NCBI GenBank assembly: GCA_018433885.1
Contig: JAHDQK010000004.1
Coordinates: 1-64,000 of the forward strand
From: Candidatus Cloacimonadota bacterium
GTDB lineage: Bacteria > Cloacimonadota > Cloacimonadia > Cloacimonadales > Cloacimonadaceae
Reading direction: 5' to 3'
DNA: 64,000 bases
Part shown: positions 18,601-60,270 of the stretch, in pieces
Layout: every line of letters begins with the position of its first letter
Numbering within the stretch: the first letter of the stretch is position 1
Translations under genes and position numbers: made by a program
Notes under the pieces: model-generated
What the model was told of the DNA's origin: nothing
What the model saw: the letters and a program-made list of their open reading frames with translations, nothing else
The model's database searches: none

Positions 18601-19049
18601 TAGAAATGGAAGACCTCAATGGCAGATTCGAAGTACCGCTGTTTAACAAAGATTTCAGCCAGTATTCCCAGCAGATTGAGATCGGAAAAGTATATTACGT
18701 AATCGGCAACAAGAGCGGATTCAACGGAAATGACGATGGCATCCTGCGTGTTCTGCCTTCTCAGATAATCGCTTTCGAGAGCCTCCCCAAATTCCTGAGA
18801 GGTTATCTAAGACTTAAGCTCAACATGGAACATATCCGCCGAGGAGTCTTGGTGGAAGCGGCGAACTGGGTGCGAGTCAAACCCGGAGGGATCTCTTTAC
18901 GGTTAGAAATCGAGACCAAAGAGCAAGAAGTGATAACCTTGGAAGCAGGGAGTGGCATCTTTGCGGATAATGGCGTTCTTGCCTGGTTGGAGCTGCAAAA
19001 GATAAATTACAGATTGGAGATTCAAGGTGCTGCGCCGGATACTCTTTAG
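15606..19049 (+). CDS. dnaE: DNA polymerase III alpha subunit
   Basis: 1147 residues, normal for DnaE-type replicative polymerases. The N-terminal PHP domain (1-210) keeps the metal-binding pattern 'HLHNHSQYSLLDG' at 5-17 and 'ITDHGN', unlike the degenerate site in enterobacteria, so it may still have exonuclease activity. The palm carries the 'PDIDIDF' catalytic aspartates (about residue 395), followed by fingers, a beta-binding region and an OB-fold (about 970-1050, from 'LLVGIVSNI'). ATG at 15606 has GGAG seven bases upstream. The last 23 bases overlap the next gene, so polymerase and GWxTD genes are translated from one message. Confidence 0.97.
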   Translation: MSFVHLHNHSQYSLLDGACRVDRMVKLAQEMEMPAVAITDHGNLFGVIDFYNTAKKAGIKPIIGTEAYIINGDLEQESSKNDIRHHLILLAMNYTGYKNLMKLSSLSYIKGFYYKPRISKSLLKQHSDGLICLSACIKGEIASLLLNDRAREAKESALWYKELFGDRYYLEIQNHQLEQEKSVMPKLIALARECDIPLVLTNDCHYLHQEDHEAHDILLCIQTGKLLSDPGRMRYNTTHLYFKSPAEMREIFPEVPEAYDNTLKIAQRIDLELRYDKFLLPNVETPPEFPEMGEYLKHLCLEAAKKKYPAMTTEVEERIDYELGVIKRMGFEGYFLVVKDIIDSARLRDVPVGPGRGSAAGSIIAYLLDITKIDPIKYGLLFERFLNPDRISMPDIDIDFCAQGRGKVIDFIVQKYNRESVTQIITYGTLGAKSVIKDVARVLSVPAADANTITKTIPGVVKSLEDALKQYPEFVSLINQNELYQSILKHSIVLEGLIRQTGIHAAGVVIAPGDLTEYVPLACSVQKDGEKVILVQYEGKWLDELKMLKMDILGLKTLTLIKKTIDLVRESHNKEIDIENVALDDKKVYAMLSKGETDGVFQFESDGMRKYLIDLKPNMFEDLIAMVALYRPGPMQFIDSYIARKHGKERVSYDHPLVENALKGTYGVTIYQEQVMQISRELGGLSGGEADTLRKAMGKKNSELMMKFREKIISGAAKNGVPAATIEKIWQDWLRFAEYAFNKSHATCYALVAYQTAWLKAHYPVEFMAALLSLEDNPADIPVKIEVCKNMGINIIPPNINRSNAEFSVHDCDVLFGLRAIKNLGEAAMKAIIEDRLQHGAYTSIFNFCSRLDSSSVNKTVLESLIASGAMDELEGSRAQKWAVIEQALALSSGDQKDRKKGQTTLFDLISDDDAEDDYFPPLPSIDDWTYLHQLDMEKSVLGFYMSGHPLFEYRILIRKICNANSISGKAKTGELLLVGIVSNISRKKDNRGNPIAFVEMEDLNGRFEVPLFNKDFSQYSQQIEIGKVYYVIGNKSGFNGNDDGILRVLPSQIIAFESLPKFLRGYLRLKLNMEHIRRGVLVEAANWVRVKPGGISLRLEIETKEQEVITLEAGSGIFADNGVLAWLELQKINYRLEIQGAAPDTL

Positions 19050-20145
19050 TATCATTCTGGTACTTGGCCTTATTCCCCTGATGGGTCAGGAAATCATGTT
19101 TGAGACCTATGATCATGGAACAGATATCTGGATACTTCTGCCCTACGACCTCTTCCACTTCGGCAATAACGAAGATGTTGCCCAGTATCAGGTTTCCCTA
19201 CAAATCAAAAACTCCCGCGGCTCACAGGTCGCAACAGATGAGACGCAGATCATGATTCCCAACCGCGAGTGGCTTCACGGAACCGCCATCCCAATACGTC
19301 GGAGTTATGACCTTTCCACAGGAACTCACAATCTGAATCTTAGCCTCCGGAACCGCAAACTGGGAGACAAACAAAATTTTAACAAATCCTTCAATGTTGG
19401 CAGTCAGGCCACAGAACTGGGCCAAGCATATGTGATTGCCACGCGAGACGACTTCAGCTACATCCCGGAAAATCTTGAGCTACATAATCTGCAAAGCCTG
19501 AAGCTTGTGCATAGCTTCGCTATCGGAGCCAGCCGCCTGATACTGGAACTGGACCAAGTAAAGCAACTCTACGATGATCCTCAAAGCCCGGTTGAGATCG
19601 ATCTTACCAGTTTGGCTGAAGGTGACAGCATCTCCAGTCTGAGGCTTTCCTTGGACGAGATGAATATCCGCTATCAAATCGAACCCCTTCTTTACAGACC
19701 GTGGTTTTCCTTTAACCATAGATATTCACTTAAAGATCAAATGGAACAGATCCGCTATATCGCAAATCAAAACGAATGGCGGGTTTTGCGAAAGGTGGCG
19801 GCAAATAAACACTCCGACGCCATCGAGAGCTTCTGGCAAGCAAAGGATCCTAGCCCCGGCACTCTGCGCAACGAATATCGCGAATACTTCTACCAAAGAG
19901 TACTATATGCGGACGAGCATTTCACGATTCATAGCAGATTGAAGGGCTGGAAATCTGACCGCGGCAGAATCTATATCAAATTCGGTGAACCAGATCAGAT
20001 CATCAACGATGCCTTTCCCATCGGAAGAGCTCCCAGCATCACTTGGCACTACTTCCGTCTGAACCGTAGCTTCATTTTCGCCGATGAGAGAGGATTTGGA
20101 CAATATAGATTAAGGAACAAAGATGAAGAATACAAAGATTTTTAG
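19027..20145 (+). CDS. Exported GWxTD-domain protein, first copy
   Basis: 372 residues beginning at a GTG with GGAGA six bases upstream, inside the 3' end of dnaE. Signal peptide 1-20 (ending LMGQ). The middle is strand-rich. The C-terminal third carries the GWxTD-type signature in the variant form GWKSD, followed by RGRIYIKFGEP (about residues 310-326). GWxTD proteins are a family of unknown function common in Bacteroidota and relatives and usually exported. It overlaps the second copy by 23 bases. The two copies are clearly diverged, so this is an old duplication. The role is unknown; a complex of the two is plausible. Confidence 0.85.
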   Translation: MLRRILFSIILVLGLIPLMGQEIMFETYDHGTDIWILLPYDLFHFGNNEDVAQYQVSLQIKNSRGSQVATDETQIMIPNREWLHGTAIPIRRSYDLSTGTHNLNLSLRNRKLGDKQNFNKSFNVGSQATELGQAYVIATRDDFSYIPENLELHNLQSLKLVHSFAIGASRLILELDQVKQLYDDPQSPVEIDLTSLAEGDSISSLRLSLDEMNIRYQIEPLLYRPWFSFNHRYSLKDQMEQIRYIANQNEWRVLRKVAANKHSDAIESFWQAKDPSPGTLRNEYREYFYQRVLYADEHFTIHSRLKGWKSDRGRIYIKFGEPDQIINDAFPIGRAPSITWHYFRLNRSFIFADERGFGQYRLRNKDEEYKDF

Positions 20146-21472
20146 ACTGTTCTGCCTGTTTTCATTGTTGCTATGCGCTATAACTGGGCTAAGCGCACAG
20201 GAATTTCTGAATATGCATTTGGATTACTCTCGTTTCTTGGCTCCCAACCAAGATACTATCCTGCTGCTGGATTATCAGATTCCCTACCGTTCTCTGATCT
20301 TTGTAGCAAAAAACAATGCTTACTTTGCAGAAGTGGAAGTGCAGGTGGAAGTATCCAATCAGGATTCACTGTTGTTTTCCCAAAACGTGACCGATAACAT
20401 CGGCATCCGTAGTAAACATGATGCCCTATCCAATCAAAAAGCATATCTGAACCGCATGAGCTTTCAGCTGGAAGAGCAAGGCTATGTGGTGAGTTTTCGC
20501 GCTACAGACATCAATAGCGGTAAGGTCTTCACATGGGATTTTGCAGTTGATGCCTTGGATAAAAATACCCGGATCAGCGACATCGAGCTCAACAGCAGCG
20601 TGTACCCGGATAGTAGCGCGTATCTGCGGAAGTTTCAACGGGACGGGAAGGTCTATGAGGCTCAGCCATCGATTATCCTGAACCGGGAATACCATGAGTT
20701 TGCTCACCTCTACCTGGAGCTTTACACACCAGAAGTAGAACTTGGCGAACCTTTGCTTCTGGTGCTTAGCCTGGATAAAGGGAATGAGGCTGTAATGGAG
20801 GACTATCTGGATATTGTTCCCCAAAAATCACGTGAAAGCTTGAGCCTGAAGATCCCCCTTTCTGATCTGGCAGCTGGCAAATATTCAGGTTCCATCAGCC
20901 TCTTGGTTGGGGAAGTGCTTCAGAACCGGGATTTCGAGTTTGTCCTCGCTGAAGAATCCGAAACCATGCTCTCGCTGTTTCCTGATCCAGATAACGAACT
21001 GGGACTGATGAAGATATTTATGGCGAGCAGAGCTCCCTCAAACTGGGACGCCATGAACGATGAAGCCAAACGCAGACACGTCACCAACTTCTGGAGAAGC
21101 ATGGCACTGAGTACCGGAATGTCCGAACAAGCAATTCTGGATATGGTAAAAGCGAGGATGGACTACGCTAACCTCTATTATTCATCTCTCAGACCAGGCT
21201 GGACATCAGATATGGGAAGGATATATATTCGTAATGGTGCTCCAGCGGAGATTGAAAAAGGCACCAGTTCGGATGAAAGCCGCTTTGTGAGGAAGGATTA
21301 TCAGATCTGGAAGTATCGTAGCGGAGACAGGCCAGTATATGTCTTCATCGATATCCAGATGAACAATAATTACCGTCTGATCTATGTTTCCGAAGACGAT
21401 ATGGAAGTATCAAACCCGGATTGGTTGCGCTTCCTCGGTTCGGATTTCGACACCAGCTTGTTGAGGAATTGA
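20123..21472 (+). CDS. Exported GWxTD-domain protein, second copy
   Basis: 449 residues, signal peptide 1-25 (ending GLSAQ). The signature appears as GWTSD followed by MGRIYIRNGAP (about 354-370), near the C-terminus. The N-terminal two thirds is predicted beta-rich. ATG at 20123 has TAAGGAAC in front and lies inside the previous gene. It is the last gene of the dnaE operon, convergent with the yraN-like gene 55 bases away; no clear terminator was seen between them. Confidence 0.85.
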   Translation: MKNTKIFRLFCLFSLLLCAITGLSAQEFLNMHLDYSRFLAPNQDTILLLDYQIPYRSLIFVAKNNAYFAEVEVQVEVSNQDSLLFSQNVTDNIGIRSKHDALSNQKAYLNRMSFQLEEQGYVVSFRATDINSGKVFTWDFAVDALDKNTRISDIELNSSVYPDSSAYLRKFQRDGKVYEAQPSIILNREYHEFAHLYLELYTPEVELGEPLLLVLSLDKGNEAVMEDYLDIVPQKSRESLSLKIPLSDLAAGKYSGSISLLVGEVLQNRDFEFVLAEESETMLSLFPDPDNELGLMKIFMASRAPSNWDAMNDEAKRRHVTNFWRSMALSTGMSEQAILDMVKARMDYANLYYSSLRPGWTSDMGRIYIRNGAPAEIEKGTSSDESRFVRKDYQIWKYRSGDRPVYVFIDIQMNNNYRLIYVSEDDMEVSNPDWLRFLGSDFDTSLLRN

Positions 21473-21955: not shown

Positions 21956-21997
21956 GGAACCATGAATAGAAATCAACACCGCAAGGTGGAGGGAAGT

Positions 21998-23191
21998 ATG
22001 AAAAAAGTTATATTGAGTGTAATCGTTATCGCAGCGATGTTTAGCCTGCTTCAGGCAGTGCCTTTTCAGACACTTGGCATGCTGCGCACCCCGGATGCTT
22101 ATGTTTTACCGCATAAAGCAGCCGAGTTAATGCTGGCCGGATATTACTATGATGTGGCGAAGCCCGTTGATATAGACGGTTTTGCGCCTTACATGATGGC
22201 TGGCGTGGGTCTTTTTGACCGCGTTGAACTGGGATTATTCCTGGGCGACAAAGTGAAAGACGAACCCATGGTTTATTTTTTAAATATGAAGTTCAAAGTG
22301 TTGCAAGAAACCCCGCGTTTCCCGCAGTTGGCAGTCGGTATGGACAATATCTTCTCGCCGGTCAGTACTCACGGGGTTCACGATGGTGGCTTGACGCCTA
22401 CTGACGACTTCTACGGACATCCGGATAAGGCCGCATTTGAGTATTATTCACCATATGCCGTAGCCTCCAAGCAAGCGGTTGTATTTGGTATGCCTTGGAT
22501 GTTCAATCTTGGGTTTGGCTCAAACCGCTTCATCGGTCAGGTGAGTCGTTCCCGCGTGTTCAATGGTATATTCATGTCTGCAGAGCTTTCCCCGATCCGT
22601 GATTTGGCAATTCAGGGCGAGTATAGTGGCCACGATTTCAATGCTGGCGTTAAATACAGCTGGAAAAATTGGGGATTCAAGGTTGGGGCATCCGCTTTGG
22701 AAGACCTTGCCAAGGACAACGGCTATGAAGATAACCTGAGAGTAGCTTTTGCCGTATCCTACCTCTTCGACAAATACGCCGAAGCTCAACGCCGTCCTGA
22801 TCTCAGCCGTTATGCCTCTGGTAGAGACTTGGAAGATCCCTATATTGTAGATCTTGGCACCATTCCTCCCGAACAGGGAGTAGTAATTCCGCCCAGTGGT
22901 GAAGTTGTTCCCGGAACAGGAGAAGTCGTAGTGATCCCTCCTACCGGAACCACTCCTGGCACCACCCCCGGAACCTCCACAGGTGAAGTTGCGGTAGTTA
23001 CTCCCGGCACCACTCTTGAGACTCCTGGTCTCAGCGGCACCGGCGGTACCACAAACTATTCGCAGCTCTCCCCCGAAGTGCGGGATTTGCTGGAAGAGCT
23101 CAGACAACTTCGTCAAGAGCGCGAGAAAGCCCAGAAATCCCTCGAAGATCTTCGTTCCTGGATTCAGGAGCTGAAGGCCAATCGGAACTAA
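21998..23191 (+). CDS. Outer-membrane-type protein with Pro/Thr/Gly linker and C-terminal coiled coil
   Basis: 397 residues. The ATG at 21998 has GGAGGG upstream and starts a clean signal peptide (MKKVILSVIVIAAMFSLLQA); the frame extends 12 codons further up without need. Residues 22-265 show a repeated pattern of short strands with glycines and aromatics typical of an outer-membrane barrel or conduit. Residues 285-345 are a low-complexity Pro/Gly/Thr/Val linker ('PGTTPGTTPGTSTGE'), and 350-397 form a charged coiled coil (LLEELRQLRQEREKAQKSL). It is the first gene of the cluster running to 32753, though a 145-base gap separates it from the TPR gene. A barrel with a long tethered helix would suit a link between outer membrane and periplasmic parts; this is inference. 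Confidence 0.75.
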   Translation: MKKVILSVIVIAAMFSLLQAVPFQTLGMLRTPDAYVLPHKAAELMLAGYYYDVAKPVDIDGFAPYMMAGVGLFDRVELGLFLGDKVKDEPMVYFLNMKFKVLQETPRFPQLAVGMDNIFSPVSTHGVHDGGLTPTDDFYGHPDKAAFEYYSPYAVASKQAVVFGMPWMFNLGFGSNRFIGQVSRSRVFNGIFMSAELSPIRDLAIQGEYSGHDFNAGVKYSWKNWGFKVGASALEDLAKDNGYEDNLRVAFAVSYLFDKYAEAQRRPDLSRYASGRDLEDPYIVDLGTIPPEQGVVIPPSGEVVPGTGEVVVIPPTGTTPGTTPGTSTGEVAVVTPGTTLETPGLSGTGGTTNYSQLSPEVRDLLEELRQLRQEREKAQKSLEDLRSWIQELKANRN

Positions 23192-23249
23192 GTACATAGC
23201 ACATAGTAGTGAAATGTAGGATTCATACTTCCTATACAGAAAGTAGAGA

Positions 23250-23277
23250 GCCAGGATGTGGTTTACTGCATCCTGGC
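23250..23277. other. Hairpin between the outer-membrane-type gene and the TPR gene
   Basis: GCCAGGATG and CATCCTGGC form a perfect nine-base stem with a ten-base loop, 59 bases after the stop at 23191. No T run follows at once (the nearest is near 23302-23310), so it may be a weak terminator, a processing site or a stabiliser of the upstream message. Confidence 0.5.
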
Positions 23278-23336
23278 ATCCTACCTAATGAATCGGTGAT
23301 TTAATTTTTTTATGAGAGTCTAAAGTGAGCGGGGTT

Positions 23337-26300
23337 ATGAAAAAGTATATTAAAGTGTTTTTGCTCGTTGTCTTTACGCTGGCTTGCGTCTCATCCATTT
23401 TTGCCCAGACGGGCATGATAGACGAGCAACTGACAGTTGAGCAGCTACGGGAAGAGATCCGCCTTCAAAAACAACAAATCCGTGAAGCAGCCAAGATGTT
23501 TCTGGTTGACGAGCTGCCGAGCATCATCGAGCTTGATCCCGACCGAGCGGATCTGGAGCTTCAGAAATTCAGCAGCGTCTTGAGGTATCTGGGCGACGAC
23601 GAAGTTTTATATCTTTTAGGGCATATGTACTCAAGGGTCGGCGAAAACGACAAAGCTATCTCCATTTTTGATTCACTGCTCAAGACAGACCTCAATCAGG
23701 GCGCGCGTAAGATGTTGAATCTTGTACTCTACCGCAAACTTATCGGGCTCCTGCAAGCCGGAGACCGCCAAGCCGCCAGAGACTATTTACGCATCATCGT
23801 TTTCGAGAACTACAATACCGAGCAGTATTTTCCTGCTTATCTGTACCTTTACTCTGATTTAAGCGCGGACAGCGGCAACTATCAACAGGTAATTACTCTA
23901 ATCGAGTCTTACAACGCCAACCGTGACATCGTTTTAAACCATTTATTACCCCTCAAGCAGCAGGTTCTTTCCCGGGTAAACAACCTCAACATCGGCAGCT
24001 ATTACGATAACCCCACCCAAGCTGGATACAATCAGCTGAGTAGCCAGATTGACCAGATCAAAGTGGACCTTACTGCAATCTATAATCAGATGATCGGCCT
24101 TGATGGAATGATTTTTGTGGATGCTATTGTCGATGCTCACAAGGATGAAATGGCCAAGCTTGACGAGCTGAAGGTCATGTTTGCAGAATATGCCAATACC
24201 AGTACGCAAACTCAGGAACAGATCAAGCCGGCAATGGTCATGATAGAATCCGTAAAACAGAATCTCGCTTTGTATGACCGTTTACTTAAGGGTTTTGACA
24301 ATCTTTTGCAACAGAACTTCCTGCGTCTCAGCGAGGCTGATCCGGATGCCGCTGAAGTTTTTGCCGGAGACCTGTATCTTGACCGGATTATCCAGACTCA
24401 AAGAACAATCCAGAGTTACGATGAGATCATCAAGGAAATCGACGCTCTTCTTGCCAGTGGAGATTATCCTCAACACACTGAACGTCTTGTAAGGGAGCGT
24501 CAGTGGGCAATGGAGCGTAAAGCAGAATCTGAGGTATTGTATCAGAAATACATGGCAGATCTGAATAATGCGGAAACAACCGATAAAACCGCTCTGCTGG
24601 AAATTTTGGGTGAATACAACGCTCTTGTAGAAGACCAGAAGATGCTTACGGAAACTGCCCATGAAATGGAAAGCTATGTAGTTACGGAAGCCCGCACCAT
24701 AATAAATGAGGACCTCCGCGCTCAGATACGCCCCCGGATTTCCGCTCAGATCGGTAGCGTAGCTTATAGTGCAGATCGCGATCAAATCTTTACCAGCGGA
24801 TTCAGTACAGCCCTTACTGCGATAGATTTTATTACCTTACAAATGGAATACAGGGCTTTGATGGCGGAATTCAATGAATACCTTGCCCGTCAGAGCACTC
24901 TCAGCGCACAAGAAATGGAAGCTGAGCAGACCAGATTCCGCAACGAACAGCTGGAATTAATTTCTCAATTTACTGCATTCATCGACGCGAACCCCTATTT
25001 CAGCGCGATTGAGCAGCCAGGTGGAGGCTCCTTAGCTGAAGCAGCAGACCTATATTACAACCTGGCTGAGTTGCAATACTATGCGATCCCTACTGATTTG
25101 ACTCTTGCTTTAAACAGCTATAAAAGAGCTCTTCAGCTCGATCCCCTTCTTCCCGATAGAGACTTGGCGCTATACAACGTAGCCTTTATCTCCAGCGAAA
25201 TTCAACGTCGCGCTGTGGACGATGCTAAGATCGCCTATCGTGAGACTGCCCGTGGCTTGGATAATCCCCCCGCCAATGCCTTGTATTCTCAACAGAATTT
25301 CTCTGAAGCGCACGAGTCTTTAACAGAGATTGTGGAGAATTATCCTGAATCCAAGATTTGGGAAGAATCGGTATATCGTCTCGGCTTATTGTATTTCAGC
25401 TATTCAACGGATTCGGATGATCCCGACCCACTGCGTGCTCAGGCACTGGACTATTTTGACCAAATCGTAGCCAAACCCAAGAGCCCGCTATATTATGATG
25501 CTCTGTACCAGAGAGGCTGGGTAAGGCTGAACAGCATAGATCAGGATGATCTGCGCCTCGCTATGACAGACTTCATGGAACTGCTTATGGCTACTGATGC
25601 AGGCTTGATCTCCGATCCCCAAGTAGCTGCTGACTACCGCGAGGATGCGGTGGACAACATCGCCTATTGCCTGATCGCTCTGGATGGCACAGATTTCAAT
25701 GCCAGATCACGCGGTGTGGCAGAGTTGCAACGAGTTTTCGAAGGTTATTCAAACCAGCAGATAGTAGAGCAGGTGCTTGATCGCTCCGCTTCGCTCAAAT
25801 TGGATATGGGCGTTTCTTTACAAGCGATAGATTTTCTCGAGTTCAAGATCGCCACTGTGCCCATGGCATTGAACAACCCGGTGCTTTTGGATTCGATCCT
25901 GGTTCTGTACCATTCATCCAGCCAAGAAATGCGCGAAGGCGAGAATCTTGAGGATATTACTCAAAACATCTACCAGCGTTTGATCGACGATTATAACCAT
26001 GAATCACAGTGGTACACCATAAACAAAAGCAACGACATCACCAAACAGATGGAGATCGTGAATAACGCTTATATCCAGCGTGGTTACCGCCTATATAACA
26101 CCTTCGTGCAAGATATCAAGCGCGAAAACATCGCCAGATATGAAGAGCACATCGCCAAGTATGGCAGCTTTGCCCAGCTTCACAACCCGGATTATCAGTC
26201 TTTTATTACTCAGTCCGATAGCCTTGTGGTGAACGCATATATGGAACTTGCAAGCCGCAATCGAGGCATCCAAGATTTCTCCGAAGCTATTCGCCGCCTG

Positions 26301-29183
26301 TATGCTTACAATGATAAATACCCAACCAACAGCTTGTTTTACGAAAACGAGAAGCTAGCCTTGGATTATGCCTTGGGAATATACGAACAAACTGAAACCA
26401 ACATGGCTACTGAGGGGTATAACGCTGCTGCCGGCGAACCCGCAAATCTGGACGAAGCTTTTGTGATCCTCCAGAACAGCGCAGATAGATTCATCGGGGT
26501 GGCGGATCAGGAGCGTTTCCGCACGCCTGCCCGCACTGCCGAAGTGATCGACACCATCCTTCTCTTGGGAGATTTCCAGTTTAACCGGGAGAAGTACCCC
26601 GAAGCAGCCCGTTTCTACAATCAAGCATTAAGCCGCAGTGCCGATATAACCGACACCGATAAGCGGGAAACATATCTGAAACTAGCAGAAATGAGTGTAA
26701 GGGAAAGCAAGCATACGGAAGCAGAAAACTGGTTCCGTCAAGCTCTTCCCCTCGCACTGAATAACGCCGACCGCGAAACGATCAACCGGGAAGTCCTGTT
26801 ACAAATCCAGAACAGCTACGAAGCCGCCGCCGCGCGGGGCGATTTTATGACCGAAGCCACCGAAAGGCTACGTCTTGCTGAAGAATTTGCCACCAGCGAT
26901 AACAGCCGAAGACTGGGACAGAGAAATGCCGCGGTTGATGCCTTTATAAACGCCAAAGCCTATCAGCAAGCAATTGACCTGTTGATGGAATTGGCAACCA
27001 CGGATACTGAAGTGGATGCCATCTATACCCGCTATGCTCAAGCCATCAATATCGCAGAATCCGACAGCCTTATGAACGACCCCGCTCTTGCCAAAAACCT
27101 CGAAGCGGAATTCATCAGTAAACATCCAGCCAGCAAATATGCCTTTGGTTTGCGTCTTGCCGCCATCAATGCCCTTGCTCAGCAAACAGTTACCAGAGCC
27201 CAAGCGGCGGAACAGTACCTCGCCCTCTATGAAGAGGTGCAGGCAGGCTCCATTTCAAACGTATCTGGAGATACCACCGTGCCCCCGGAAGACCTTCTGG
27301 CAGATAGCATCCGATTGTACAACCTAGATACCAATGTTGCTGTCGGTTATCCTCTGATGGATCGCTTTATCGCAAGTTATCCCAACCACGAGAATGTGGT
27401 TCCCTATATGGAGATTATGGCGGCAGGCCACTTCAGCCGCAATGAAATGGAAGATTACAAACGGCTTGCCCGGGAGATATTCCGCAAAGACCCCTCCAAA
27501 AACCAATACTATCAGAATGTTGCAGAACGCGAACTTCTGGTTATCGCCAACGAGTTTGATGCCGCTTATCAGAACAAAGACTTCACCGGTGCCTTTGCCG
27601 CGCGTGATCGCTACCGTACTTTGGAAACCGCATACAAACGTGAAGGTCTGAATTTCGATCAAGGCGTATATGATGTATTTGCCAGAGTTCAAAAAGAATA
27701 CGACGACATCCAGAAGCGCAACGCATATCTGGCGAATTACGACTCCCGCCTAAGCGCACTGGAAAGATCCAAGTTATTTACGGACTCCCCTGCCGCGCAA
27801 ATCCGGGTGAACAATCTCACCACATGGGATAGAAACCTCGGTGCTGGCGACCGTCGTATTCCCAAGTATTTCGATACCGTAAACGCCGAAGCAAATAAAG
27901 TTCTCGCTTTGATCAAGCAGGCTGCTGAAAGTGGATATGATATCGATAACGACAGACAGATCCGAGCTTATGCCTTACTCTCCAAGGTTTTTGACCGTGG
28001 AGCAGAAGTTGTGGGAACCCAAATCCGAGCCTTTTTCTCAAATTCTGAACAGGGAAGGTATTATACTTCTCAATGGGGAGCCGATGCTGCAACTCAAGTA
28101 GGCGGCTTTGTTAGCCAGAATACGATGGACTATGTCTCTAATTCCATAAACTGGAGCAACTACATCTTTACGAACTACTATTTGGCTGGCTACCAGACTC
28201 CCGCCACCGAAGCCGCAAAAACCGCGCTAACTTCAGCTGGATACGTCTTGGAATTCCGCACTCAGGAATTTGTGCTGGATGACAGCTGGCAACAGACTCT
28301 TACTCCGGAAAGATCCAACCTGAGCATCAGTCAGATCCAAAGCCCGAAGGGGCAAAAGCTGGGCAGCACCACAATACCTGCCAACACTACCCTGATGGTC
28401 ACCCGCAGTTTCAATGTGGATCTAGAGCCAGATTTCGCCTTTCTACAGTTCGTTTTCCCAGACGAGATCGAGCTTAAGCTGAATGGCAACTTGGTTCCTG
28501 CAAACATGGTTCCCGTGGATAGCCTGGATGCCAATAAGCCTGCCACAGCGCGTTACAGCATCTTGATCCCCGGCGAACTTTTCGCGGTGGGAGAGAATAC
28601 CTTTGAGCTATCCATGATCAACCCCAGCTCCGTCAACACCCAAGCAGCGGCATCCTTGCTTCTGATGACAAATCTGCAGAAGATCCGCGCAAACATCCCC
28701 CCTGTGGTTAAAAACATTTATACCAACCAAGGTTGGCGAGTTGTCTCTACAGATGCTGAGACAGGCGAAGAGAGTGCCGCTTATGCCACCGAAGCACCCG
28801 AATGGAACATTAACTGGGATAACTTGGCAGATATGGAGCCCAACCCCGCCCGACCCATTTGGGTATCCGAGCTAGATGCTCCGGCAGACGAGCTTGTGTT
28901 TGAGACAGAGTTCATTCTCGACACCGAATTCAGAGAAGGAATGATAGAGTTTATCGCACCCGAAAACGTTACCGTGTATTTAAACGGCAGCGAAATTGGT
29001 AACGCAATCTTCGATTATGACCCGGAACCTCTGACCATCTACAAAGGACAGGTTCCCATCCCAATTCAAAATGTAGTGGAAGGTAGAAACGTGATTCGTT
29101 TCAAAGTAAACAATAGCTCTATCTACAGAGGCTTTTTGGCTCACATTACTTATTCACAAGCCGGTAAGGAGGATATCCGATGA
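23337..29183 (+). CDS. Giant periplasmic TPR-repeat protein
   Basis: 1948 residues from the ATG at 23337; a GTG four codons earlier (23325) is possible. Signal peptide (MKKYIKVFLLVVFTLACVSSIFAQ region, residues 1-22). Nearly all of the protein is helical, with TPR-like pairs visible in several places ('YNLAELQYYAIPTDLTLALNSYKRALQLDP', about residues 575-605, and 'LGDFQFNREKYPEAARFYNQALSRS', about 1083-1107). A coiled-coil section lies around 230-480. The last 330 residues change to beta sandwich (two jelly-roll-like domains, 'FLQFVFPDEIELKLNG' and 'IEFIAPENVTVYLNG'). Such size and layout suit a periplasmic scaffold. The next gene overlaps its stop by four bases and is followed by ExbB/ExbD genes, which suggests it is the scaffold of the same machine, comparable to the TPR proteins of gliding-motility clusters. 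Confidence 0.85.
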   Translation: MKKYIKVFLLVVFTLACVSSIFAQTGMIDEQLTVEQLREEIRLQKQQIREAAKMFLVDELPSIIELDPDRADLELQKFSSVLRYLGDDEVLYLLGHMYSRVGENDKAISIFDSLLKTDLNQGARKMLNLVLYRKLIGLLQAGDRQAARDYLRIIVFENYNTEQYFPAYLYLYSDLSADSGNYQQVITLIESYNANRDIVLNHLLPLKQQVLSRVNNLNIGSYYDNPTQAGYNQLSSQIDQIKVDLTAIYNQMIGLDGMIFVDAIVDAHKDEMAKLDELKVMFAEYANTSTQTQEQIKPAMVMIESVKQNLALYDRLLKGFDNLLQQNFLRLSEADPDAAEVFAGDLYLDRIIQTQRTIQSYDEIIKEIDALLASGDYPQHTERLVRERQWAMERKAESEVLYQKYMADLNNAETTDKTALLEILGEYNALVEDQKMLTETAHEMESYVVTEARTIINEDLRAQIRPRISAQIGSVAYSADRDQIFTSGFSTALTAIDFITLQMEYRALMAEFNEYLARQSTLSAQEMEAEQTRFRNEQLELISQFTAFIDANPYFSAIEQPGGGSLAEAADLYYNLAELQYYAIPTDLTLALNSYKRALQLDPLLPDRDLALYNVAFISSEIQRRAVDDAKIAYRETARGLDNPPANALYSQQNFSEAHESLTEIVENYPESKIWEESVYRLGLLYFSYSTDSDDPDPLRAQALDYFDQIVAKPKSPLYYDALYQRGWVRLNSIDQDDLRLAMTDFMELLMATDAGLISDPQVAADYREDAVDNIAYCLIALDGTDFNARSRGVAELQRVFEGYSNQQIVEQVLDRSASLKLDMGVSLQAIDFLEFKIATVPMALNNPVLLDSILVLYHSSSQEMREGENLEDITQNIYQRLIDDYNHESQWYTINKSNDITKQMEIVNNAYIQRGYRLYNTFVQDIKRENIARYEEHIAKYGSFAQLHNPDYQSFITQSDSLVVNAYMELASRNRGIQDFSEAIRRLYAYNDKYPTNSLFYENEKLALDYALGIYEQTETNMATEGYNAAAGEPANLDEAFVILQNSADRFIGVADQERFRTPARTAEVIDTILLLGDFQFNREKYPEAARFYNQALSRSADITDTDKRETYLKLAEMSVRESKHTEAENWFRQALPLALNNADRETINREVLLQIQNSYEAAAARGDFMTEATERLRLAEEFATSDNSRRLGQRNAAVDAFINAKAYQQAIDLLMELATTDTEVDAIYTRYAQAINIAESDSLMNDPALAKNLEAEFISKHPASKYAFGLRLAAINALAQQTVTRAQAAEQYLALYEEVQAGSISNVSGDTTVPPEDLLADSIRLYNLDTNVAVGYPLMDRFIASYPNHENVVPYMEIMAAGHFSRNEMEDYKRLAREIFRKDPSKNQYYQNVAERELLVIANEFDAAYQNKDFTGAFAARDRYRTLETAYKREGLNFDQGVYDVFARVQKEYDDIQKRNAYLANYDSRLSALERSKLFTDSPAAQIRVNNLTTWDRNLGAGDRRIPKYFDTVNAEANKVLALIKQAAESGYDIDNDRQIRAYALLSKVFDRGAEVVGTQIRAFFSNSEQGRYYTSQWGADAATQVGGFVSQNTMDYVSNSINWSNYIFTNYYLAGYQTPATEAAKTALTSAGYVLEFRTQEFVLDDSWQQTLTPERSNLSISQIQSPKGQKLGSTTIPANTTLMVTRSFNVDLEPDFAFLQFVFPDEIELKLNGNLVPANMVPVDSLDANKPATARYSILIPGELFAVGENTFELSMINPSSVNTQAAASLLLMTNLQKIRANIPPVVKNIYTNQGWRVVSTDAETGEESAAYATEAPEWNINWDNLADMEPNPARPIWVSELDAPADELVFETEFILDTEFREGMIEFIAPENVTVYLNGSEIGNAIFDYDPEPLTIYKGQVPIPIQNVVEGRNVIRFKVNNSSIYRGFLAHITYSQAGKEDIR

Positions 29184-29473
29184 AAAAGACCCTATTTGTT
29201 ATGACCTTGCTAAGCGCAGTGGGCTTTGGGCTCTATGCTCAAGAGGCGACCCCCCAACCAGCTCCGCCACCGCGGCCTTTGGTCCAAGGAGTGTATGTGG
29301 ATACCGAGACTATTGAGATCAGAGTCAGTGATATGGCACCCGCATCCGGAATTTATAAATCGAAATCCGATACCTTCTTCGTAACCGGAAAGTATCGCTT
29401 TGTTATGGATGACAGAATCGTACAAGAAAATAGCGAAACATTATTAAATAAATGGCTTAAGGAGTCAAAATGA
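29180..29473 (+). CDS. Small exported protein of the ExbB/ExbD cluster
   Basis: 97 residues. Signal peptide 1-20 (ending GLYAQ), a short proline-rich stretch (TPQPAPPPRP), then a small domain ending in a helix. I do not recognise it. The ATG overlaps the TPR gene stop (ATGA) and has a strong AAGGAGG site; its own stop overlaps the channel gene start in the same way. Strict translational coupling indicates that it is made in proportion to its neighbours and is a component or chaperone of the complex. Confidence 0.75.
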   Translation: MKKTLFVMTLLSAVGFGLYAQEATPQPAPPPRPLVQGVYVDTETIEIRVSDMAPASGIYKSKSDTFFVTGKYRFVMDDRIVQENSETLLNKWLKESK

Positions 29474-30243
29474 AAAGCAAGCATATCATACTCGTTGTGA
29501 TCGCCCTGTTATTGAGTGTAGGGTTCCTCTTTGCACAAGAAGCAGCTGAGGCAGTAGCAGAAACAGCAGCTCCAGCTTCCTCTCAAGGTGGACTATTCCA
29601 ACTGTATAACGATAGCGGAAACTTTGCCCATCTGATTTTAATCAACTTCCTGATCGGTTTGGCATTGGCTGTAGTGCGCTACATCCAGCTCTATGTCCGG
29701 GAAAAGATCGATGCCGAAAAATTCTTTCTCAAACTGAAAAACTTTGTGAAGAACGATCAAATCGAAGAAGCCACCAAGATTTCTGAACAGTTCAAGGGAA
29801 CCACCATGGGCTTTATTTTCTGGAGTGGTCTTGCTGTCTTCAAGGACATCCGCAAATCCGGCAAGAAGGGTGAAGAAGCCCGTATCGCCGTACAGAACGC
29901 ATTTGACGAAGCTGTGTTGCAGAAAGTGCACAAACTGGACGGCGGTCTCTTCTGGTTCGATACCCTGGCTCAGATCTCCACATATCTGGGACTTCTGGGA
30001 ACCATTTTCGGTCTAATCGCTGCCTTCTCCGCTCTGGAAGGACTTACCGGAGCAGCTCAGAATGCCGCTCTTACCAATGGTATCCGTCTTGCTATCGGTA
30101 CCACGGCATTTGGTTTGATTGGCGCTATTCCTCTTACCCTGATCAAGGGTGGTCTTTTTACCCGGGCTCAAAACCTCATTAGCGATATCGACGAATACAG
30201 CGTAAAACTGGTAAACCATATCAACAACCAGATCAAGGACTAA
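29470..30243 (+). CDS. ExbB/TolQ/MotA-type proton channel subunit
   Basis: 257 residues. A hydrophobic N-terminus like a signal sequence (1-22) precedes an Ala/Glu-rich periplasmic segment. Membrane helices lie at about 53-75, 155-183 and 200-225. The conserved core is visible in 'LAQISTYLGLLGTIFGLIAAF' (about 165-185, shown by ends) and 'AIGTTAFGLIGAIPLTL', the pore-lining motifs of the ExbB/TolQ/MotA family (Pfam MotA_ExbB). The N-terminal signal-like extension is an add-on seen in some TonB-system homologues. With the two ExbD-type genes that follow, it would form an inner-membrane motor driven by proton or sodium flow. Overlaps the preceding gene by four bases. Confidence 0.93.
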   Translation: MKSKHIILVVIALLLSVGFLFAQEAAEAVAETAAPASSQGGLFQLYNDSGNFAHLILINFLIGLALAVVRYIQLYVREKIDAEKFFLKLKNFVKNDQIEEATKISEQFKGTTMGFIFWSGLAVFKDIRKSGKKGEEARIAVQNAFDEAVLQKVHKLDGGLFWFDTLAQISTYLGLLGTIFGLIAAFSALEGLTGAAQNAALTNGIRLAIGTTAFGLIGAIPLTLIKGGLFTRAQNLISDIDEYSVKLVNHINNQIKD

Positions 30244-30246
30244 GTT

Positions 30247-30780
30247 ATGGCTGGATATCGTCGTCCATATCGTCCTTCAGAGGCGAGGCAACAGAAAGGC
30301 CAGACGGCGCCACAGGAACCGGATTTGGTTCCCATCATGAATCTGTTTCTCACCATCATTCCTTTTTTGATGATGATGATTACAATTTCGGTTTCCCTCA
30401 TGGCTTTGAACTTCGCTTCGGACGCCGGTGGTGGCGCAGGCGGTAGCGGCGGTGGAGGCGGCAATCAGGATAAGATCCTGGAGATTCACTTGATGCTAAG
30501 GCAATCGGAAAGCTTGGAGCTATTCCCCGGGATGGAAATCCGCGAACCGGGCTCCACCATCCACAAATTACCTTGGTTGAGCGAGAATGTCTATGATTTC
30601 CACAGCCTGAACGATCTCCTCGCACGCCTCAAGGAAAAGTATTCCGAAACCACCGAGATCGCCGTTGTAGTTCATCCGGATGTGCTGTATGATACGCTTA
30701 TCCGCACAATCGACCTGTGCAAAACCAATGGTTTTGTAACAGTGCATTATCGTAGTCCCCAAGCAATGTACGCTTATTAG
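30247..30780 (+). CDS. ExbD/TolR-type protein without the usual membrane aspartate
   Basis: 177 residues. A cytoplasmic tail (1-25) is followed by one membrane helix (28-52) and a periplasmic domain after a Gly-rich linker (GGGAGGSGGGGG, about 60-75). In ExbD/TolR the helix begins 'PL.D' and the Asp carries the proton; here the aligned segment is 'VPIMNLFLTIIPF' with Asn at residue 32. The only nearby Asp is D26, just outside the helix. The periplasmic part ends with the family-like 'TEIAVVVHPDVLYDTLIRTID' region (positions 137-157). It starts three bases after the channel gene. It probably acts as a structural or modulatory partner of the second ExbD protein. Confidence 0.88.
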   Translation: MAGYRRPYRPSEARQQKGQTAPQEPDLVPIMNLFLTIIPFLMMMITISVSLMALNFASDAGGGAGGSGGGGGNQDKILEIHLMLRQSESLELFPGMEIREPGSTIHKLPWLSENVYDFHSLNDLLARLKEKYSETTEIAVVVHPDVLYDTLIRTIDLCKTNGFVTVHYRSPQAMYAY

Positions 30781-30795
30781 GATGGGGAGGTTATT

Positions 30796-31332
30796 ATGAG
30801 TTTTAATTCGAAAACCAACAAAGGGCGGCGCCAAGTTCGCCGCAAGGTGCAGGATTCCAAACAACTATCGATCACATCCCTGTTGGATGTCTTGACCATC
30901 ATCCTGGTGTTCCTTATCAAAAACGTATCCATGGAAGCGGTGAAGATCTCCGAATTGCCGGATATGATATATCCCACCACCATGTCCACGGATAAATTGA
31001 TGGAGAACGCCATGGTAACTCCTGTAAAACTGTATATGCATAAAGTTCTCCTCGGTGTAGAAAACCTGACCTTGGGTACTCCCAAAGATATCGTGGAAAA
31101 CCAAGAAACAAGACGTATCATGGAAGCGTTTTTCCTTACAGATTACGACGCTATCCCGGAAGACAAGAAAAGAGAAGCATGCCTCGTGGTACAAGCAGAC
31201 GCGCAATTACCATGTGGCTACATAACCCAAATCGTGAGCGTAGGCACCTCCGTGGGTTATGAAAATATCTACTTCGCAACCTTAGAGGAAGCAGACTGGC
31301 TGAGGACATACAGCTCTGCTTCGTCACAATAA
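30796..31332 (+). CDS. ExbD/TolR-type motor protein
   Basis: 178 residues. A basic cytoplasmic tail (KGRRQVRRKV) leads into a single membrane helix 'LSITSLLDVLTIILVFLI' with the conserved proton-carrying Asp at residue 31. The rest is periplasmic and keeps the typical late ExbD motif in divergent form ('ACLVVQADAQLPCGYITQI', about 142-160). GGGGAGG lies before the ATG, 16 bases after the previous gene. This copy, not its neighbour, should be the active stator partner of the channel. Confidence 0.9.
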   Translation: MSFNSKTNKGRRQVRRKVQDSKQLSITSLLDVLTIILVFLIKNVSMEAVKISELPDMIYPTTMSTDKLMENAMVTPVKLYMHKVLLGVENLTLGTPKDIVENQETRRIMEAFFLTDYDAIPEDKKREACLVVQADAQLPCGYITQIVSVGTSVGYENIYFATLEEADWLRTYSSASSQ

Positions 31333-31343
31333 ATGGAGGTCTT

Positions 31344-32753
31344 ATGGCTAAGATTCTAAGTCTCAGATTGAACTACAAAGGGAAGTTCCTTGATTATGCC
31401 AAAGAAGGCAAGGAAATCAAGAAAAACTTCACTATTGGTTCAAACAAGTTTCTGCAATGGCAGATTCTGGATCCCTCGTTTCCGGATAAACACATGTTTA
31501 TCCAACAGAAAGGAGGAGAGTATGTAATGCAGATGCTTCCCGGTAACCAACTTAGTGTGGAAAAGGGCGGCAATGCGGTTGATAGCAACTATCTAAAACA
31601 AAACAACCTGTTATCGGGCAATGAACTGGTGCTTAAACATGATCTCAAAGGTACTCTTACTCTCTCTCCAGATTGGAGCATTGAGTTTGAATACAGAGAA
31701 CCTTGGGTGGCGATTCTTACTGCGGAAGAAAAACAGATCGTCGCACAATACGCACGCAGAGCAAAGCCAGATGAAGTTAGCAGATTCAACCGCATGATTC
31801 TGTGGTTGGTTTTGTTATTGGCGATTGTGTTCTCGATAATCTTCGAGCTGTTTCTAAAACCGGAATACAAATACGAAGACACGGTGGTAGGTAAACTACA
31901 AACACTTCAAGCCGAAGCCCAAAGAGTTCAGGCTGATGCCAGTTTGCGCACCAGCAACTTCGTTCAACAAGAAGCACCACCTCAGGAAGCTACAGAAGAC
32001 GATACTCCCCAACAGGGAACTCCCGGAGCAACCGGTCCTCGCGGATCAGCAGCTTTGGATGCTGCTTTTGCCGGAGGTTTTGATGCTACGGCAACAGGTG
32101 TGGCACCACAGCTAAAAATCGTAACCGTAGTACAGGGATTTTCCGCAAGGCGCCCCGGTGCCGGCGGTGGTGGCGGTGGTACAGGTAGTGGTGGAGCCGC
32201 AGGCGGAGGCGCAGGAGCTGGATCCTCATTCAACGCATCCAGTGCTCCGAATTTTGCCGATATCGGTGCCGCTGTTACTAAAGGTCCCTCTACAGGTCTT
32301 TACACACAACGCCCTGAAGGTGCCACAGGTATCAATGTGATAGGAGATGCCTCCAAAGTAGCTCCCAGTGGAAAATCCTGGGGTGACCTTGTAGAACAGG
32401 AAAGAGTGAGAAGAGATTACGAGCGCCGTGGCGTGGTTAAATTAAGAGAAGGCGTCATTGAAGGCCTGAGTGAAGAACAAGTAGCGGTACAAACCAGCCT
32501 GAGAGATCAGGTTCAGAACCGTCAATCTCAGATCACCCAAGCCTATCGCGAAGCAAATCTGCGCCAAACCGCCAGCTTTACAATCACCTTGTTCATCCGT
32601 AGTAATGGAAGCCTGAGGGAATCCATGGTGGTTCCTGCCGGAGCATATCCGGAGAGCTTTGTTGCCAGGGTAAAGAGCATCGTTGATAGCTGGAGATTCA
32701 ACGTAACTGGTGAGGCACAATATACCTTCACGGTACGTCTAAGACCAAATTAA
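31344..32753 (+). CDS. FHA-like/TM/TonB-like protein (GltG/AgmX-type architecture)
   Basis: 469 residues without signal peptide. The cytoplasmic N-terminus (about 25-115) resembles an FHA fold ('FTIGSNKFLQWQILDPSFPDKHMFI', positions 29-53), a phosphothreonine-reading module in other proteins. One membrane helix lies at 151-171. The periplasmic part has a Gln/Glu/Pro stretch, a Gly-rich linker (about 268-292) and a final 70-residue domain ('TASFTITLFIRSNGSL ... WRF') like the TonB/AgmX-PglI C-terminal fold. This order (FHA, TM, TonB-like end) matches GltG-type proteins of Myxococcus gliding machinery. It likely transmits motor force from the ExbB/ExbD complex to the periplasmic scaffold, with a cytoplasmic input. 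It ends the cluster; a terminator follows. Confidence 0.8.
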   Translation: MAKILSLRLNYKGKFLDYAKEGKEIKKNFTIGSNKFLQWQILDPSFPDKHMFIQQKGGEYVMQMLPGNQLSVEKGGNAVDSNYLKQNNLLSGNELVLKHDLKGTLTLSPDWSIEFEYREPWVAILTAEEKQIVAQYARRAKPDEVSRFNRMILWLVLLLAIVFSIIFELFLKPEYKYEDTVVGKLQTLQAEAQRVQADASLRTSNFVQQEAPPQEATEDDTPQQGTPGATGPRGSAALDAAFAGGFDATATGVAPQLKIVTVVQGFSARRPGAGGGGGGTGSGGAAGGGAGAGSSFNASSAPNFADIGAAVTKGPSTGLYTQRPEGATGINVIGDASKVAPSGKSWGDLVEQERVRRDYERRGVVKLREGVIEGLSEEQVAVQTSLRDQVQNRQSQITQAYREANLRQTASFTITLFIRSNGSLRESMVVPAGAYPESFVARVKSIVDSWRFNVTGEAQYTFTVRLRPN

Positions 32754-32778: not shown

Positions 32779-32805
32779 AGCTCCGCAATCGCGGAGCTTT
32801 TTTTT
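32779..32805 (+). terminator. Terminator of the envelope-machine cluster
   Basis: AGCTCCGC and GCGGAGCT form a perfect eight-base stem with an AATC loop, followed by seven T, 26 bases past the last gene. Confidence 0.93.
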
Positions 32806-35575: not shown

Positions 35576-37051
35576 CTATCTTGTCTTTACGATTTTTTTG
35601 AGCTGCCTGGTCGTGCCTTCGGAGCGAAGGAGATAGATACCTTTTGGGCTTGGCTTCCCTCCGCTGTCTTTGCCGTCCCAGACAGTTTCACCTTTACTCA
35701 GCTCCAGAGAACGGATTAACTGACCTTTGATATTGAAGATCTCAATGCTGTTACCTTGGATAGGTAATGAGTTGTCCTGTTTGATCTTGATCTTTATTTC
35801 ATCTTTCATAGGGTTTGGATAAGCCGATATTATCGTTGCTGGAGGGATTTGAACTTCATCAGCCACTGGCACCTGACCATTGGGCAGGAGCTTGGTGATT
35901 AACTGGGTCTGACCATTGCCCCAAGCCCAGTACAAGCAACCTTCGCTGTCCATGGCAAGCAGAGCTGTGGATGCGTTGCCTATCCCTTCGTTTATGTAAT
36001 TGCTAACGTTTTCCCCGTCCTGTTGCCAAGACCAGATCAGGTCTCCGTTACCGGAGAGGTTGACTAGTGAAGCATCATAAGGCGAGTAGGTGCCACAAAC
36101 AAACACTCCATCTGCATGCACCAAAGTGGAGTGCGGCCATTTTACAATAGTGGGATCGACGTTAAACACGTGCGTAAGTTCATTGTTATGTAATCGATAA
36201 GCCATAATGCATATGTCGAGATATACCTCGCCAAATGAACCAAATATCGAGTAGCTGTCGTCTTCAGGGTTGCTACCTATGGTCAAGCTTGAGTAAAATG
36301 CGTGAAAATATCCAGGTATATCAATGCGGTTGACGATGTTGCCCATGGGATCAACCTCCAGAATTGAGGCTGTACCAATGCTCAATTGACAGGTGATGAG
36401 GATGTTGCCATTGTCCATGAGCGCCAGATCATAGGCTTCTGCTCCCCGTTCCTGATAGGGGCTACTGGCATCCAATGGGTAATAAGCAGTGGCAAGCGTA
36501 TCTCCCGTAGCTGAAAAGCGGTAGAAGCAAGCCATTGACTCATCAATATAGCGCAAGGTTTTGCCCACCGCAACTATCTCATTATTGGGCGTTCGCAGAG
36601 CTTTATTGAAATGCGCTCGTTTAGGATTGGGTATGCTATACTCTTCCGAGATTAGTGTAAAATTACCATTACTATCAATCGACCAAAGATTAATATACCA
36701 GTCTCCAAGGAGAGCCGTTATGGCAGCAGTAATAAAGGTAACGGCATCGTTTTCATCAATATCAATTCCAGCAATTGTGAGCCAAACAGTATCCCCTCCC
36801 ATCAAATGTCGCCAGAGTAGATTACCGGAAGGATCAAGTTTGGTAATGCTTAGATAGTGTGTATGTAGCCCGTAATTGTAATCTAAGTTTCCCAGAACAA
36901 CCACGCTGTTATCGGAGCAGACAAAGATGGATCTTGATGATATCAGGCAAGCTTCAAAATATTCAGAATAGACATATCCGCTTTGGGCAAATGCTATGCT
37001 GCTGATGGCTAGGATAAATATACTAAGTAACACTCGAAATGATGTGTTCAT
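35576..37051 (-). CDS. Secreted propeller-like protein with sorting-type C-terminus
   Basis: 491 residues. Signal peptide 1-22 (ending SIAFAQ). Residues 25-400 contain repeated units of the form 'GN....ITKLDPSGNLLWR' and 'EVDPMGNI', as in delta-60/beta-propeller surface proteins; no catalytic motif is visible. The C-terminal 90 residues are the sorting-type domain ('SAYPNPM', 'EIFNIKGQLIRSL', 'VWDGKDSGGK', 'PKGIYLLRS'), ending KKIVKTR. Upstream of the ATG at 37051 is AAGGAG (on the minus strand). Single gene, convergent with priA. Confidence 0.8.
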   Translation of the reverse strand: MNTSFRVLLSIFILAISSIAFAQSGYVYSEYFEACLISSRSIFVCSDNSVVVLGNLDYNYGLHTHYLSITKLDPSGNLLWRHLMGGDTVWLTIAGIDIDENDAVTFITAAITALLGDWYINLWSIDSNGNFTLISEEYSIPNPKRAHFNKALRTPNNEIVAVGKTLRYIDESMACFYRFSATGDTLATAYYPLDASSPYQERGAEAYDLALMDNGNILITCQLSIGTASILEVDPMGNIVNRIDIPGYFHAFYSSLTIGSNPEDDSYSIFGSFGEVYLDICIMAYRLHNNELTHVFNVDPTIVKWPHSTLVHADGVFVCGTYSPYDASLVNLSGNGDLIWSWQQDGENVSNYINEGIGNASTALLAMDSEGCLYWAWGNGQTQLITKLLPNGQVPVADEVQIPPATIISAYPNPMKDEIKIKIKQDNSLPIQGNSIEIFNIKGQLIRSLELSKGETVWDGKDSGGKPSPKGIYLLRSEGTTRQLKKIVKTR

Positions 37052-52605: not shown

Positions 52606-52823
52606 AATTCCTCCCTGAATTATGTGTATTATCATATATATAAAACCATTATAAGTTTGGGGCGATGATCCTATGGAGCCGGATTCTGACAAGTTATATT
52701 TTTACTGATATCGATATTAGTCCCCCGGCTAGGCATCGGATGCGAGCGTAAAGCTATGTCTTGCAAGTAATACAATTTGTGGAAGAATATAAACATCAAC
52801 CGATGTTTGATACACAAAACGCA

Positions 52824-60107: not shown

Positions 60108-60270
60108 TTTGATGTTTTTCCACCCGCGGGATTAAACAGGGCTAAGGATACTGTTGATAAGGTTTCCCGCTCTGATTTTTTTTTCGGGCAAGTTATAAGA
60201 GATGATCTACAGGAATTTATGGGGATTCGGTATAAAAATTGTATGTAGCATTATAAAAAAACTGGAGACC

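Follow-up and report, generated by a model that had tools for sequence, protein, structure and literature searches.

The closest described relatives of the locus examined here are the Agl/Glt machines. A study of 2011 by Luciano and colleagues described a core of gltD, gltE, gltC, gltG and aglRQS, which is clustered in non-Deltaproteobacteria, where its function was unknown, and which stood as a machine of its own in Proteobacteria and in a Fibrobacter (PMC3169522). In Myxococcus xanthus, AglR binds GltG in a two-hybrid assay (PMC3169522), and AglRQS is required for movement (PMC3858216). The 2013 study on Agl-Nfs suggested that the core is perhaps a basal transport machinery (PMC3858216). Here we analyzed 64,000 nucleotides of a Candidatus Cloacimonadota bacterium (assembly GCA_018433885.1, contig JAHDQK010000004.1, positions 1 to 64,000; hereafter the window), in which seven plus-strand genes at 21998-32753 encode, in this order, an outer membrane (OM) β-barrel, a TPR protein, a 97-residue exported protein, ExbB, two ExbD proteins (ExbD1 and ExbD2) and a protein with FHA-like, transmembrane (TM) and TonB-like parts. 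Our data suggest that this block is probably the Cloacimonadota form of the Agl/Glt core complex, that is, a trans-envelope motor of the Agl/Glt core type.

The block has an AglR-type ExbB, two distinct ExbDs encoded right after it and a GltG-type FHA-TM-TonB protein, all of which are features of the core complex. ExbB (29470-30243, plus strand; Pfam PF01618, 3.3e-20) is a motor ring subunit of the ExbB/AglR type with a signal-like N-terminal extension, and its channel threonines T178, T211 and T212 are invariant in 26 aligned rows. In a tree of 43 ExbB sequences, which has some long branches and does not include M. xanthus AglR itself, the Cloacimonadota sequences form a clade among those of GltG-type loci, drawn from about ten phyla, and are separated from Tol/Ton with 97/97 support. 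This separation bears on the reading of the block as a divergent Tol-Pal or Ton system for envelope upkeep or nutrient uptake. The ExbB, ExbD and TonB folds would fit such a system, as would the PDB profile relatives, TolQ and ExbB, and the 5:2 motor family and a TonB-like C-terminal domain are common to both. However, Tol-Pal and Ton lie on the other side of the ExbB tree, keep the Asp in ExbD/TolR and have no scaffold comparable to the TPR protein. Nor are Tol/Ton systems marked by two distinct ExbDs, one of them without Asp, by an FHA domain or by a TPR scaffold of giant size, and the genome has separate ExbB-ExbD-TonB-type operons on two other contigs (C68 and C71). We hold the Tol/Ton reading to be very improbable.

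The FHA-TM-TonB gene (31344-32753, plus strand) encodes a GltG-like force transducer, as judged from AlphaFold2 domains, Foldseek and hhalign. The AlphaFold2 model, built with 24 orthologues, has an FHA-like β-sandwich (residues 4-118), a TM helix (144-171), a disordered Gly-rich linker (193-347) and a domain resembling TonB C-terminal domains (377-466) with the topology helix-strand-strand-helix-strand. The top Foldseek matches are FHA domains (from E 4.8e-4), and TonB C-terminal domains follow lower (2gsk, TM-score 0.66 on the target), so that both folds proposed in an initial annotation of the window are upheld. Scoring by sequence only was weak for this protein, and when the FHA-TonB alignment was compared as a profile with the PDB, Gly-rich linkers dominated and the TonB matches were weak. 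Comparison by hhalign of the Cloacimonadota FHA-TonB profile with a GltG-like set, members of which match NF033760 (GltG) at 1e-19 to 1e-62, gave 99.1% and E 3.7e-19 over the FHA and TM regions. The window protein alone had no match to NF033760 and matched NF033768 below the cut-off; NF033768 was matched by 22 of the 24 orthologues at E ≤ 0.1. FHA domains carry a Gly-Arg that binds phosphothreonine. At the Gly-Arg position the domain of the window protein has Gly-Ser, and in other phyla Gly-Asp is the usual pair in GltG-like proteins. Because Gly-Ser replaces Gly-Arg, phosphothreonine binding in the usual mode is doubtful.

The same set of genes is present far beyond the Cloacimonadota. A DNA pattern of the ExbD2 motif LxDxxTIxLVFLxK was scanned over public genomes, giving a sample rather than a count; the pattern picked up the orthologues but none of the other ExbD loci in the bacterium's own genome. 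Among the matches listed are Fibrobacterota, Raymondbacteria, KSB1, Latescibacterota, Sumerlaeota, Coatesbacteria, Dadabacteria, Bdellovibrionota, Myxococcota, unclassified rumen bacteria and others. In nearly all of the listed loci the order is ExbB-ExbD1-ExbD2, the FHA-TonB profile matches the next gene in most (E down to 1e-16), and in many the genes upstream of the motor encode TPR-type proteins along with a short exported one. The order large TPR protein, smaller TPR protein or lipoprotein, exported protein of about 100 residues, ExbB, ExbD, ExbD and FHA-TM-TonB was found in Fibrobacterota, Raymondbacteria, KSB1, Sumerlaeota, Latescibacterota, Myxococcota and others, and neighbours in the loci of other phyla match the NCBIfam models GltE (to 3e-36), GltC (4e-32) and GltG. 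The initial annotation had seen here a "related but distinct" motor whose composition looked new. The kinship to Agl-Glt is borne out by the ExbB tree and the GltG homology; the new composition is not, as the same ordered set with GltE, GltC and GltG matches occurs in other phyla and corresponds to the core complex described in 2011 (PMC3169522). The block shares with that core ExbB, the two ExbDs, a GltG homologue and periplasmic TPR proteins in one cluster, and by size and place its small exported protein and OM barrel are comparable to GltF and GltA/B/H. It differs from it in that the TPR genes are fused to give 1948 residues, in the Asn of ExbD1 and in the lack of a GltJ match.

A search of plasmids with ExbD2 gave no match. 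A cluster on the Vibrio alginolyticus plasmid pMBL287 (L063:2106-9310), largely unannotated and adjoining a large Ig-like protein, is a distant cousin of the motor. Like the block, it has a barrel, an exported protein (of 726 residues), a short exported protein, ExbB, an ExbD with Ser in place of Asp, an ExbD with Asp and a Pro-rich transducer; unlike the block, it has no FHA domain and contains an extra lipoprotein and a 210-residue exported protein.

The two ExbDs differ at the proton site. ExbD1 (30247-30780, plus strand; PF02472, 2.6e-8) and ExbD2 (30796-31332, plus strand; PF02472, 5.5e-6) are axle subunits, and alignment with Escherichia coli TolR places at the proton-site Asp an Asp in ExbD2 and an Asn in ExbD1. 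The residues are Asn32 of ExbD1 (codon 30340-30342), within P-x-x-N-L-x-x-x-I-P, and Asp31 of ExbD2 (codon 30886-30888), within the motif used for the pattern. The Asp-to-Asn change in ExbD1 had gone unnoticed in the initial annotation. In Cloacimonadota, Asn occupies the ExbD1 site in 22 of 22 aligned rows and in all 30 loci of a phylum search, two sets that partly overlap. The ExbD2 Asp is invariant in 21 rows found via ExbB and in the 30 loci, which were found via ExbD1, so that the N/D pair (ExbD1/ExbD2) is present in 30/30.

Outside the phylum the ExbD1 site varies. Among the ExbD2-pattern matches listed it holds N in 37, D in 12, S in 2, A in 2 and G in 1, with three further rows truncated or misaligned; the Vibrio locus and two outliers labelled as Cloacimonadota (L136 and L146) are counted here. 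Because the search pattern itself contained the ExbD2 Asp, the pattern-selected loci are no evidence for it. A second set of 49 pairs, found via ExbD1 in whole genomes and overlapping the first in part, comprises 26 N/D, 19 D/D, two G/D, one A/D and one D/A; at least one Asp is retained in every pair, and ExbD1 is without it in 29. Altogether, the ExbD1 Asp is replaced by Asn in Cloacimonadota and by Asn, Ser, Ala or Gly in about ten other phyla. The presence of Ala, Gly and Ser suggests that protonation was lost at this site, rather than that Asn is needed there. A 2022 review of 5:2 motors describes AglQ and AglS both with the conserved Asp (PMC9389320), and the Cloacimonadota block departs from this. 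Because 29 of the 49 pairs of the second set also lack the ExbD1 Asp, we take its loss to mark a subtype of the motor and do not count the Asp pair among the features that define the core. In the literature, which was covered in part, we found no report of an Asn/Asp split in an ExbD pair, none on AglQ D28N and none on Cloacimonadota ExbB; as far as could be found, the split is a new observation. Among four of the loci in other phyla (L141, L145, L135 and L165), those of Fibrobacter have a longer ExbD1 (311 residues) with Ala at the Asp site, and those of Raymondbacteria and of one Fibrobacterota metagenome-assembled genome have an extra open reading frame (ORF) of about 107 residues between ExbD1 and ExbD2.

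From the N/D pair we infer an obligate ExbD1-ExbD2 heterodimer, which would leave one proton site per axle and five states per turn. More broadly, we tentatively propose, as a plausible if far from secure reading, a widespread class of envelope motors with an obligate heterodimeric axle and a single proton-binding Asp (ExbB5-ExbD1-ExbD2). For the two ExbD-type subunits of AglRQS, the 2022 review leaves the choice between hetero- and homodimers undecided (PMC9389320). That the question stands even for AglQ and AglS would also fit a different arrangement, in which ExbB and ExbD2 alone make a normal 5:2 motor with two Asp and ExbD1 is an accessory anchor or regulator outside the ring; the lack of the catalytic Asp in ExbD1 is also in keeping with such a role. 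However, ExbD1 keeps the TM segment and periplasmic domain of ExbD (PF02472), exbB and exbD2 flank its gene in nearly every locus, and the D/D pairs found in Bacteriovoracaceae and in many Myxococcota suggest that catalysis is possible at either position. An accessory ExbD1 appears unlikely, if worth keeping in mind, and the heterodimeric axle is the arrangement that we carry forward.

The other parts of the block are the barrel, the TPR scaffold and the small exported protein. The barrel ORF spans 21962-23191, and the internal ATG at 21998 is the conserved start (M13 of the ORF, invariant in 23 genomes), giving a protein of 397 residues (21998-23191, plus strand). In the AlphaFold2 model, numbered over the ORF, 12 strands are followed by disorder at 288-369, which is a Pro/Thr linker, and by a C-terminal coiled-coil helix at 371-408; Foldseek matches in the PDB are OM barrels such as KdgM, FapF and OmpG. 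The TPR scaffold is an exported protein of 1948 residues from the ATG at 23337 (23337-29183, plus strand; Pfam TPR 2e-8 to 3e-8), or of 1952 residues from a GTG (23325-29183), and has orthologues in 24 loci. In several families other than that of the window (loci L047, L049, L051 and L052), a pair of genes for about 670 and for 1300-1500 residues takes its place; the long form is present also in L058 of family f2. Given this pair in related families, the most fitting reading of the 1948-residue scaffold is a fusion of the two genes that stand apart there. No Pfam family matches the C-terminal end of the TPR protein, which may resemble β-sandwich (jelly-roll) domains, and a weak profile match (59%, E 9e-5) links it to the end of the large TPR protein that holds the same gene position in a Raymondbacteria locus of this type. 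The 97-residue exported protein (29180-29473, plus strand) overlaps each neighbour by 4 bases and has a conserved C-terminus, LLNKWLKESK, and 6 invariant columns in an alignment of 16 rows. An exported ORF of similar size, about 100 residues, occupies the equivalent place in other phyla; homology between them was considered and left unproven (hhalign probability 2.8%).

The six genes from the TPR gene to the FHA-TM-TonB gene are packed: they overlap by 4 bases at 29180-29183 and again at 29470-29473 and are otherwise 3, 15 and 11 bases apart, and the barrel gene lies 145 bases upstream of the TPR gene. An intrinsic terminator at 32779-32798 on the plus strand, with an 8-bp stem of 6 GC pairs followed by TTTTTTT, closes the unit and is the top-scoring plus-strand candidate of the terminator scan; priA is next at 32877. 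Most of what the initial annotation said of the layout stands: all seven plus-strand ORFs with their coordinates and sizes, the barrel start at 21998, which agrees with the invariant M13, and its linker and coiled coil, which AlphaFold2 and Foldseek uphold, the 1948 residues of the TPR protein, which match the ATG at 23337, the tight packing with partial overlaps, and the closing terminator. Only the count of packed genes changes, from five to six.

Upstream of the block lie dnaE, a pair of GWxTD genes and yraN in reverse orientation, and downstream lies priA. The order GWxTD-GWxTD-yraN(reverse)-barrel-TPR-97-residue protein-ExbB-ExbD1-ExbD2-FHA-TM-TonB-priA is kept in the genus, in the family and in most other block-bearing families of the order, which answers the concern, raised with the first description, that relatives might not retain the neighbourhood. 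Because the gene order is conserved across families of the order, the seven-gene block is not a chance arrangement. The two overlapping GWxTD-domain proteins (19027-21472, after dnaE) adjoin the motor block in most families. They were considered as parts of the machine and ruled out as such, being neighbours only: they are present in 85 of 88 genomes, motor-less ones included. The ExbD1 profile was found in 63 of the 88 Cloacimonadota genomes (51 of the 71 best genomes). Family f10 is without it, as are most of f13 and some of f9, although some of these absences may be assembly gaps; in three genomes (G031, G032 and G039) the motor ExbB is absent too.

This distribution bears on secretion. The initial annotation offered the secretion of sorting-tail proteins as a cargo, and the machine could accordingly be the type IX secretion system (T9SS) motor of Cloacimonadota, replacing GldLM. 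SprA is present in 85/88 Cloacimonadota genomes, sorting tails occur in the window, and GldM had no match in the bacterium's own genome, where no control matched either. Yet SprA is retained in 25 of 25 genomes without ExbD1, which argues against such secretion as the general cargo, and so does the lack of the motor ExbB in G031, G032 and G039; the axle genes of the block are of the ExbD family and not of the GldM type. Because all 25 ExbD1-less genomes have SprA, driving T9SS is unlikely as the general role of the motor, and the replacement of GldLM is very improbable. T9SS type A sorting tails are found in the window at 35576-37051 (minus strand), 50041-52692 (minus strand) and 60202-62256 (plus strand); of the three proteins, one is without assigned identity, one has an ExeM-like stretch and one is agmatine-deiminase-like. 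On another contig of the same genome (C21, L057:8194-10188), a ZorA/ZorB-like pair (a MotA-like protein of 487 residues and a MotB-like protein of 175) lies beside large uncharacterised proteins and is possibly an anti-phage system.

Several points count against reading the block as an Agl/Glt-core-type motor with a heterodimeric axle. The Ser-x-x-x-His of TonB is absent from the TM helix of the GltG-like protein, whose coupling to ExbB may for this reason be unlike that of TonB. The TPR scaffold occupies the place expected for GltC/GltD/GltE in the gene order, but the GltC and GltE models have no match in Cloacimonadota, whereas they do match in such loci of other phyla; its orthology to GltD/E/C rests on position and is not demonstrable by sequence. 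The same holds for the orthology of the 97-residue protein, which is not demonstrable by profile. ExbD1 and ExbD2 could each form a homodimer, of which that of ExbD1 would be inactive. Finally, the gliding-specific GltJ (NF033761) has no match in the bacterium's own genome. This last absence also bears on whether the machine drives gliding as Agl-Glt does. A homologous core with an OM barrel and a TPR scaffold as in Glt would fit gliding, but the 2011 study judged the core alone unlikely to drive motility and gliding to be undocumented in most carriers (PMC3169522). We hold gliding to be improbable.

For the Agl/Glt-core-type motor we propose the following mechanism. Five ExbB subunits would ring an axle of one ExbD1 and one ExbD2. 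Protons would pass via the single ExbD2 Asp, the ExbD1 Asn binding none at its site, and each turn would then comprise five power states rather than ten. The GltG-like protein would couple to the ring by its TM helix and cross the periplasm with its disordered linker. Its TonB-like tip may then pull or move a scaffold of the fused TPR protein and the coiled-coil OM barrel, in an order modeled on Agl/Glt, and the machine would in this way drive transport, or do mechanical work, at the outer membrane. The motor most likely moves surface-linked cargo. Two other described machines are comparable. In the Agl-Nfs spore-coat machine of Myxococcus, a GltG-type transducer on a like motor moves a surface polymer (PMC3858216), though no spore-coat genes are known here. 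The TPR-TolQ-TolR-TolR-vWA force transducer clusters of PVC bacteria share with the block a TPR gene, one TolQ, an unlike TolR pair and a dedicated transducer (PMC12204202); their transducer ends in a vWA fold, whereas that of the block ends in a TonB-like domain and has a cytoplasmic FHA-like domain.

With these results, the Agl/Glt motor and its transducer are now seen in about ten phyla, with the full block in Cloacimonadota. The Asn/Asp split offers a natural case of a motor whose axle has a single subunit able to carry protons. The 2022 review holds ten-fold symmetry to be almost certainly universal for 5:2 motors (PMC9389320). If the proposal is true, a single-Asp axle would break this symmetry: a heterodimeric axle would use five protons and make five 72-degree steps per turn, and its two arms would be specialised. 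If confirmed, the split would settle how the ExbDs pair and would let the relation of proton number to step size and torque be tested.

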